20,894 nucleotides of DNA from positions 1-20,894 of IMG/VR virus record IMGVR_UViG_3300005734_000001; one strand, written 5' to 3'. The notes beneath the pieces were generated by a model, which saw only the letters and a list, made by a program, of their open reading frames with translations, did not search any database and had not been told where the DNA came from. Shown piece by piece: positions 14,088 to 20,814 of this stretch. The stretch comes from a virus. The translations under genes and the position numbers were made by a program. How positions within the stretch are numbered: position 1 is the stretch's first letter; each line of letters begins with the position of its first letter.

Positions 14088-15802
14088 TTACTCGTAGTAC
14101 TCGTGAAGACGATCCAGAACTTTCTGTGCATCGTTATCGACGAAGGTTTCTTTGGTATCCCACATGCCCAGAGGCGCACGGATACGTTCGTTGACGGTTT
14201 CTTTCGTCAACTTGGCTTGGTACACGTACTTGAAGCCCAGGGCTTCTTCTTCTGGAGTGATCACCAGGAGATCAGAACCGTAGTCTTTCAACTTATTCAG
14301 CGGTACTTTTTTCGCTGCAATTACAGTAGAGAAGTAGGATTCAATACCCTGGTTCATGATGGAGCCTTTCACTTTGACCATGGTTTCCATGATCATTTCA
14401 GACTCGTTCATGATGTCCATTGAGTGCGCCAGGAAGATCACGTTTTTAGTGGACTTCGCAACGTACTGAGCCATCAGATTTTTCCAGAACGTACCGTAAT
14501 CGCCCCAGGCCTTCATGGTGTTCGCAGAGTTCAACACGTAGTTGTTCTCATACATGTCCATCATGTAGGTGAGCGTATCGATCACGATCGTATGGATCTC
14601 AGGCATGGATTCAGCAGCGGTGAACGCCTCGTATACCTGTAATGGATCAGTGACTGTGTATTCTTTGAATTTGCTGCGGAACGGTAACTTTTTGTTCGTT
14701 TACATTCACCCTGTATCGTTACTACAGAGCCGGGACGTACCCTGCCTCCGCTTTCACGGAGGACTAGACTATATCATCACCTCAATAATAAGGTGCCCAC
14801 TGCTTCCACCTCACTTGAGGTGTACTCTACTCACTTCCATCAAAATATTTTGATGTGTTTTCGATAGTCGTTGGAGCTTATACAACGTGTTTATAAGTTT
14901 GTCCTTTAACAATTTTAGCCATAGCAGCGACTGACGTACCAAAACGGTTCGCCAATGCAGTAGCACTAAAATCTTTATCACGAGGTTTGAATACCTTCCT
15001 ACAATATCGGACTTCATCATCAGTTAACTTAGATTTATCTTTTAAGTTAGCTAATGAGTTCTGCCTAGCTTGTTCGGATTTATGATTCTTTTTACCTTTA
15101 TAAGGTTTCCACAAACCTGTATCCCTAGCGTGTTTTAGGTTTTCAGCTTGAGTAACCCATTCAAGGTTATCGACGCGATTATTCAGCTTATCTCCGTCTT
15201 TATGATTTACCTGTGGTTTGTTTTCTGGGTTTTCCAGAAAAGCTAATGCCACTAAACGGTGAACCATTAAAGTCTTTTTTCTGATAACTACTGAGTAATA
15301 CCCTCTATTATTGAGGGTATAGGACACTTCCCGTTCTGGTTTGAGTATGTGTTTATACTCGCCTGTAAATTCCATACCTTTACCGACAATTGGAATTTTG
15401 TATTTACTTTGAGTAAATACTCGACCGTCTCGGGTAATTCTATAAATACCTGATTCAGTGTCTTCTATATAGTCTTCCATACTGCACCTTTATAAATTCA
15501 GATGCGTACAGTATACCAAATATAAACTCTGAGTGTTTGGTATTCCGTTGTATCTTGCCTGCTGATTGCCCAATCCTTTTGATTTTCAAGCATTCACGCT
15601 TACTGTTACCAGTTACGTTGTAGCTCAAAAGGCTCTAAGGGGTTTCCAGCAATTCAATGGGTTTAACGAGAACTTACAGTTAATTCTCGCAGTTCAGATA
15701 CATAACCCCTTCAGGGTTACGCAGGTTCATCAATGATGCTGATTTACCGCCAGCGGATTTACCACTGATCAACACCAGATGGTCATTCATCTGAGTAGAC
15801 AT
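14088..15802 (-). CDS. RecA/Sak4-like ATPase, split by a group I intron (join 15802-15683, 14696-14088)
   Basis: Splicing gives a 242-residue RecA-fold ATPase, likely a recombination mediator/annealing ATPase working with SSB. Exon 1 (15802-15683) encodes 40 residues with the P-loop GKSAGGKS at 14-21 and ends LNCEN. Exon 2 (14696-14088) resumes in frame with NKKLPF and carries the Walker B strand IHTIVID (D80) and NVIFLAHS (sensor strand). An ATG inside exon 2 gives a 172-codon ORF that could be misread as a complete gene; it lacks the P-loop. The start has AGGA 10 bases upstream, and a GC-rich hairpin is centred about 37 bases upstream of it. The gene follows the primase and precedes the 67-aa protein and SSB. 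Confidence 0.88.
14697..15682 (-). ncRNA. Group I intron, 986 bases, in the RecA-like gene
   Basis: Boundaries follow the rules: the 5' exon ends in U, the intron ends in G, and the reading frame is restored. P1 is GCGAGAAU (15690-15683) with the internal guide GUUCUCGU (15673-15666), placing the required U-G wobble at the splice site. The P box AAUUGCUGGAAACC is at 15654-15641. P5 is CCUUUUGA with UCAAAAGG (15632-15625, 15582-15575). The Q box is CAAUCAGCAGGCAAG (15568-15554). P7 is GACUAU with AUAGUC (14869-14864, 14772-14767), inside the classical CCAACGACUA and GAUAUAGUC signatures. P8 (CAUCAAAA/UUUUGAUG) and P9-type hairpins are present. The endonuclease gene fills the P6 loop. Confidence 0.95.
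14878..15480 (-). CDS. HNH homing endonuclease inside the group I intron
   Basis: A 200-residue intron endonuclease that would cut intronless alleles of the RecA-like gene. The N-terminal part (about 10-60) resembles NUMOD4 ([12 protein letters not shown]). The HNH_3 core is at about 73-117: VHRLVALAF, then [19 protein letters not shown], then ENLKHA. The C-terminus (about 152-198) is a DNA-binding helix-turn-helix ([20 protein letters not shown]). It has its own ribosome-binding site, AAAGGTG, 4 bases before the ATG. Base composition is AT-rich (17 G+C of 60 at 15001-15060) against about half in the primase, as expected of a mobile ORF. Its last codons double as one strand of intron helix P6. 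Confidence 0.93.
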
Positions 15803-19823: not shown

Positions 19824-20450
19824 TTAACAATTAAACCATATCTCTTGGGCTTTATTAATATCAAAAGTTTTAAACAAATCAGGATTTAATATAAATGCCT
19901 GTTCGTTTTTGTCTTTTTTATAATATGCTGTTTTCACACGTCTGATAATATTTTTTCTTTTTAATTCATTAAATGAACGAGAAAAAGCAGCTTTTTGTGA
20001 GGGCGTATTAAATTCACCAGCCAGGACACAGATATTTGTTTCTGGGTCACGATTTAATTTAATTTGATTAAATAACTGGAAAGCGGATTTAGACACCTGA
20101 GCCAGTAAATCAAAAATATCCATATTAACAATATTCGCCTGAGTGCCTTGTATCATTCTGAGGGCGCGATTAGTTGCATGTATTACTTGAACATCTCCAT
20201 ACGATTTAGCGCCTTCAGCCAGAAGCCTGTGAGCTTCTATATGATCCTCAATGGTCAGTCTTATTAGATTTTCTTTACGATTGTTACCGCCTAGAGATCT
20301 AGGAATTATATGGTGCTTATGGGTAAGGTTACTATCTTTAGGTAGGGTGTACCCATTCAAAAAGTCTCGATATTGTTTAAATACGGGATCATTAAGAATT
20401 ATTTCATAACCATTAAAGGTAGGCGTTTTAGTCTTTAAATCATTTATCAC
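19824..20450 (-). CDS. HNH endonuclease fused to a winged-helix domain
   Basis: A 208-residue protein in two parts. Residues 42-78 form an HNH nuclease (HKHHIIPRSLGGNNRKEN, then H70 and H74 in EDHIEAHRLL). Residues 110-190 look like a winged helix (DIFDLLAQVSKSAFQLFNQI, then RSFNELKRKNIIRRV) and resemble the protein encoded just upstream. The start is GTG and overlaps the upstream stop by 11 bases. The DNA is very AT-rich (14 G+C of 60 at 19861-19920), unlike the adjacent genes. A free-standing homing endonuclease is the likeliest identity; a plasmid RepL-like ancestry of the winged helix is a guess. Confidence 0.85.
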   Translation of the reverse strand: MINDLKTKTPTFNGYEIILNDPVFKQYRDFLNGYTLPKDSNLTHKHHIIPRSLGGNNRKENLIRLTIEDHIEAHRLLAEGAKSYGDVQVIHATNRALRMIQGTQANIVNMDIFDLLAQVSKSAFQLFNQIKLNRDPETNICVLAGEFNTPSQKAAFSRSFNELKRKNIIRRVKTAYYKKDKNEQAFILNPDLFKTFDINKAQEIWFNC

Positions 20451-20814
20451 TTACTTGACTCCATATATGCTTAATGCGAGGCACATATTCGTGCGGAGGT
20501 AAGATGAAAAAGGGAGATACAATGTACGTGTGTTTTGAGTACATCAGTTGGGTTTCATCGTCAATATCAATGATTCCTGTAGCCGGTAAACGGCATACCA
20601 GATCGAATGTAATAAGCTCTTTATAGTAGGCGCTACGTTTATTCAACTGACCTTTGGTCAGGTTCTCAGAACGAAGAGTTGCGACATTAGTGCGGTAATT
20701 CATCTGATTTTTTATCTTTAGGAAAAGATCCCTGGCTCCTTTTGATAATAGCCCCATAACATCTAGAATATCCGGTGAATCATTTTGGTTATTCAGAGTA
20801 TTAAGTTGTCCCAC
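20440..20814 (-). CDS. Winged-helix protein, 124 aa
   Basis: Residues 15-105 show a winged-helix pattern: DILDVMGLLSKGARDLFLKI, a polar stretch, NKRSAYYKELITFDLVCRL as the recognition region, then a beta wing (KHTYIVSPFFILP). This aligns with the C-terminal domain of the adjoining HNH protein. It could be a transcriptional or replication regulator. The start is GTG at 20814 with AGGAG about 10 bases upstream; it overlaps the preceding open frame by 22 bases. Confidence 0.75.
   Translation of the reverse strand: MGQLNTLNNQNDSPDILDVMGLLSKGARDLFLKIKNQMNYRTNVATLRSENLTKGQLNKRSAYYKELITFDLVCRLPATGIIDIDDETQLMYSKHTYIVSPFFILPPHEYVPRIKHIWSQVSDK

Follow-up and report, generated by a model that had tools for sequence, protein, structure and literature searches.

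The closest described relatives of the intron analysed here are those in the nrdE gene of phage Twort, the nrdB gene of Pseudomonas phage KIL1 and the tape measure gene of Lactococcus phage AM11, together with related phage introns, all of which we take to be of the IA2 type. They are about 80% identical to it over the first 105-132 nt and share its P3-P9 core, its R and S elements and its P9, but they lie in other host genes, their endonuclease ORF is different or absent, and their internal guide sequence (IGS) and P3 differ through compensatory changes. The same host gene, Sak4/gp44, is also interrupted in the Escherichia N4-like phages PhAPEC7, PW8, Bas96 and SP5M, by an intron which likewise has a group I core and an HNH-type ORF but differs in its site (between QKA and WGD, codon 103/104 of the protein studied here), its endonuclease and its short P5. 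In GenBank a joined CDS is given for Sak4/gp44 in Bas96 and PhAPEC7, a 'putative intron' being noted for the latter, and in SP5M (L026 1825-2580) the same Sak4 intron is unannotated and left as three hypothetical proteins. The initial annotation of our DNA had known of no intron at this gene in N4-like phages; the GenBank entries contradict this, at another site of the gene.

Comparable elements have been described in other genes. The td group I intron of the N4-like Vibrio phage pVa5 (PMC5746245) is also HNH-bearing and situated in a DNA-metabolism gene, which is thymidylate synthase instead. In phage JA1 gp24, the DNA polymerase and gp43 are split by HNH genes (PMC3670811), and recA of Bacillus species hosts group I introns (reviewed in PMC3984707), the host gene being a RecA-family recombinase as here, but a cellular recA and not a member of the Sak4 family. 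No paper on an intron in a Sak4 gene was found in our literature search, and the codon-40 site appears to be unreported within the literature and records searchable. The site is new, yet the element is of a known kind, and introns had been annotated in this gene before.

The window, i.e. the whole stretch of DNA that was analysed, is an IMG/VR virus record of 20,894 bases, a fragment of a Schitoviridae-like (N4-like) phage. Its gene order (primase, Sak4, SSB, Holliday junction resolvase) is the one shown by N4-like phages (Schitoviridae), and the 71.7 kb IMG/VR contig 3300005736_000002 is 100% identical to it across the 14,226 bases compared. The intron is hosted by the gene of a Sak4-like ssDNA-annealing ATPase (N4 gp44 family) on the minus strand, with the following parts:

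15683..15802, minus strand: first exon of the Sak4-like gene, whose 40 codons (MSTQ...LNCEN) include the Walker A motif GKSAGGKS, from translation
14697..15682, minus strand: group I intron in phase 0, 986 nt, from an Rfam match, covariation, a same-site relative and the junction test
14088..14696, minus strand: exon 2 of the Sak4-like gene (NKKLPF...EYYE), from translation and profile matches

The frame of exon 1 opens at 15802 and stops at an in-frame TAA at 15682, the first intron bases; its 40 amino acids alone match PHROG 124 (E=1.7e-5). Gene calling would report the first ATG-started ORF of exon 2, which begins at 14606, as a fragment of 172 aa that lacks the P-loop, as the initial annotation had foreseen. 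The joined exons encode 242 residues with zero stops. Joining raised the PHROG 124 score from 111.9 bits for exon 2 alone to 152.5 bits over residues 3-242 and that of Pfam AAA_24 from 30.3 to 39.0, the profile match to the Sak4 family now being full length and including the P-loop. Sak4 homologues in 463 phage records are matched by the joined protein, in 462 of them at a single place and over 80% or more of its length.

The last base of exon 1 is T15683, omega-G is 14697 and exon 2 begins with A14696. An open in-frame join is also obtained by shifting both cuts together by -5 to +2; since these eight positions keep the frame, the frame alone does not fix the junction. Among the 13 shifts tried, only the junction given here combines an exon-final U with an intron-final G, and it alone produces NCENNKKLPF, a sequence which intronless relatives, e.g. 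phage SBP1 (L003), read uninterrupted. In nucleotides the junction of the joined window exons is GAGAAT|AACAAA and that of the SBP1 allele GAGAAC|AACAAA. U15683 forms a wobble pair with G15673 in P1, the intron ends in G14697, and exon joining restores the product of the intronless alleles. Across the site 82 of 84 aligned Sak4 loci are continuous, the exceptions being L005 and L027, the latter from a phage 100% identical to the window where compared. The initial annotation had placed the intron at 14697-15682 with base-exact splice sites, a P1 U-G wobble at 15683 and the final G at 14697, had claimed that joining restores the protein frame, and had proposed an alignment of intronless homologues as a check; each of these points was borne out, the coordinates being those of the only junction that satisfies both the U/G rule and NCENNKKLPF, and the 242-aa product being unbroken in relatives.

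The elements of the ribozyme core are located as follows:

15683..15689, minus strand: P1 5' strand CGAGAAU, which belongs to the exon and supplies the U of the U-G pair as its last base (sequence)
15667..15673, minus strand: P1 3' strand, internal guide sequence GUUCUCG (sequence)
15655..15661, minus strand: P3 5' strand CCCAUUG, pairing 7/7 with 14802..14796
14796..14802, minus strand: P3 3' strand CAGUGGG, pairing with CCCAUUG
15646..15651, minus strand: P4 5' strand UGCUGG (alignment-fold helix)
15560..15565, minus strand: P4 3' strand UCAGCA (alignment-fold helix)
14864..14869, minus strand: P7 5' strand GACUAU, R element (sequence, alignment fold)
14767..14772, minus strand: P7 3' strand AUAGUC, S element (Rfam match, alignment fold)
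14791..14795 and 14782..14778, minus strand: P8 5' strand CACCU and 3' strand AGGUG (sequence)
14745..14762, minus strand: P9 hairpin CCUCCG-UGAAAG-CGGAGG (Rfam match, fold; compensatory change in 6/6 pairs)

P1 (CGAGAAU/GUUCUCG) has 7 bp counting the U-G wobble; its GAGAAU/GUUCUC part recurs in L005 and has the counterpart GAGGAU/GUCCUC in KIL1. P8 has a counterpart at the same place in L005 (CAUAGC/GCUAUG). P1 with its U·G pair, P3, P4, P5, P6, P7, P8, P9 and omega-G are all present in the window intron; the P3-P8 helices are conserved, and the R and S elements pair as P7 (GACUAU/AUAGUC) in the perfect 6 bp already recognized in the initial annotation. The Rfam check suggested there gave a match to RF00028 at 14861..14745 (E=1.3e-5), but this covers the 3' half of the core only and its 34.7 bits are below the gathering score of 50, because a 603-base ORF separates the core halves.

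For the covariation analysis eight introns of phages, those of Twort nrdE and KIL1 nrdB among them, were aligned with the endonuclease ORF removed. Their consensus fold contains P4, P5 with extensions, P6, P7, P9 and P9.2, and 31 of its 51 pairs show compensatory changes. Paired cells amounted to 93.4% against 74.1% in shuffled alignments and the covariation score to 0.563 against 0.188; neither value was reached by any of 500 shuffles, and pairing fell to 31-39% in slid controls, so that chance is excluded for the intron core. P7 is invariant across the eight introns and thus contributes identity, not covariation. P3 is a pseudoknot, which such an alignment cannot represent, and since MAFFT misaligns the P3 3' strand and P8, it was tested apart, by strand swapping: P3 pairs 7/7 in six introns, shortly 3' of a GAA motif, and 6/7 in the other two, i.e. 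54 of 56 pairs in total compared with 40.0 when strands were swapped between introns (fraction 5e-5). Phage introns of the IA2 subgroup are marked by extra hairpins (P7.1/P7.2) between P7 5' and P3 3' and by sequence kinship with the Twort intron, and the window intron may be one of them. Hairpins CAUCAAAA/UUUUGAUG and CACCUC/GAGGUG were read directly from the sequence of that interval, and the core of the window intron aligns with the Twort nrdE intron. The assignment as a group I intron with exact ends, whose removal would restore the ATPase, is supported by homologous proteins, covariation, the same-site relative and the empty-site alleles.

The intron also carries a gene of its own, which had been absent from the finding in the initial annotation:

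14878..15480, minus strand: ORF of 200 aa for an HNH homing endonuclease, within the P6 loop (Pfam, PHROG and PDB matches)
15475..15511, minus strand: hairpin over the ribosome binding site (RBS) and ATG of the endonuclease (fold)

The HNH motif of this intronic ORF was recognized by Pfam HNH_3 (E=2.4e-11), and the protein matches I-HmuI (PDB 1U3E; E=3.7e-10, 42.6 bits over 91 residues), the SPO1 intron endonuclease, with which it has the HNH core in common but from which it is distant in sequence and differs in target gene. It also belongs to PHROG 59 (E=5e-44), which is the family of 12 intron-encoded nucleases of Bastillevirinae phages as well (PMC11878797). The search of bacterial genomes yielded three distant HNH relatives. 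The hairpin at the endonuclease start has a folding energy of -11.9 kcal/mol in the window, with z=-3.4 for a stretch of 41 nt picked by hand, and translational repression by it is possible. It resembles the situation in T4 introns. As a conserved feature it was rejected, the hairpin being clear in the window but not significant in L005 (z=-0.27), and a sigma-70 promoter for the endonuclease was likewise dropped (one weak site, where chance alone would give 2.9).

Further HNH and group I sequences were observed elsewhere. At 19824-20814 (minus strand) the window has a second HNH ORF, of 208 aa, in overlap with an ORF of 124 aa that lies upstream of it. The HNH protein weakly resembles this upstream ORF in its C-terminal portion (30% over 69 aa, E=2e-4), which looks like a fusion of an HNH domain with a duplicate of the adjacent ORF, and a search for a group I core in this segment found none. 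The phage of L005, IMGVR 3300049008_000030, has another strong group I intron match (L132 1501-1760, minus strand; 74.6 bits) adjoining an ORF which, judged by eye, resembles a phage RNA polymerase, and PhAPEC7 has an additional weak one (L130, NC_024790.1 24914-25167; 38 bits) outside Sak4.

In L005, from a phage whose primase is 52% identical to that of the window, a related intron lies between exactly the same two bases as in the window, and a search of viral contigs for further copies of the intron junction gave just these two known phages. E39, K42, L44, P45 and F46 are invariant across the 84 aligned relatives, and residues 40-41, at the exact junction, vary (A at 0.71 and G at 0.87 being the most frequent); the junction is thus a locally variable point in a conserved stretch. 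The proposal in the initial annotation of a homing site that cannot drift therefore holds for the flanking residues but not for the junction itself. Both introns occupy minority CENNK alleles, most other loci reading CEAGK or CESGK, and the intron was observed only in alleles of the ENN type. Nine intronless loci have CENNK like both carriers and form with them one supported group (99/94) in the Sak4 tree; empty same-site alleles are therefore found beside occupied ones in two phages.

It is almost certain, judging from these sequences, that the insertion after codon 40 of the Sak4-like gene is a phage group I intron of an ordinary sort, probably mobile and of the Twort/SPO1 (IA2-like) type. 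The exact ends, restored protein, covarying core, HNH gene, and occupied and empty alleles at one site can be seen in the sequence, and from them we infer self-splicing, cleavage and homing of the window intron. The catalytic core would fold in the transcript, guanosine would attack after U15683 and exon 1 after G14697, and the exons would join to encode the full 242-aa ATPase; ribosomes on unspliced RNA would stop at the UAA that immediately follows exon 1. A co-infecting phage with an uninterrupted Sak4 allele would be the target of homing: the HNH endonuclease would nick or cut this allele close to the junction, and recombination would copy the intron into it. A further reading, which we regard as very unlikely, starts from the intron's place in a recombination gene whose product could help to copy it into new genomes; splicing, the junction UAA and the RBS hairpin would jointly couple the level of the annealing protein to endonuclease expression, the element thereby tuning its own homing.

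The intron could also splice but be no longer mobile, having been inherited vertically in its lineage with an idle HNH gene, which we consider unlikely, although several data are in line with it. The Sak4 tree sets the carriers from the window and L005 apart, but a single clade, hence a single origin, is not rejected (AU p=0.49); two separate acquisitions, initially read from the tree placement, were dropped after this test, and the same-site pair cannot show recent homing. Nucleotide identity between the two introns (75%) is just slightly above that of exon 2 (72%), and the carriers are only two phages among the viral contigs searched. On the other hand, the HNH ORF is intact in both phages and its protein conserved (64% aa identity), and the L005 primase is nearest to that of the intronless L036 (69%, compared with 57% to the window's), whereas for Sak4 the closest protein to that of L005 is the window's (70.3% vs 68.1%), which hints at lateral exchange around the intron with co-conversion.

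A dead ribozyme in a broken gene, which would yield a truncated ATPase and a short peptide carrying the P-loop, agrees with the Rfam score under the cut-off; it is extremely unlikely in view of the intact core helices, the exact splice signals retained in two diverged phages, and the conservation of both exons without stops or frameshifts. The gene might finally be split by an intein, by insertion of a free-standing homing endonuclease or by an assembly error, and HNH genes are common beside Sak4 in N4-like phages. To these we assign practically no probability, and the sequence already excludes them: the in-frame stops at the junction exclude an intein, a group I core surrounds the HNH ORF, and L005, which comes from a different data set, has the interruption too. 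The preferred reading is a real, well delimited and probably mobile group I intron.

With this intron, group I insertion is seen at a second site of the Sak4/gp44 gene in N4-like phages, one that is common to two diverged phages. Because of the intron, annotation would wrongly present a conserved recombination gene as a fragment. The matched occupied and empty alleles constitute a set for testing homing.
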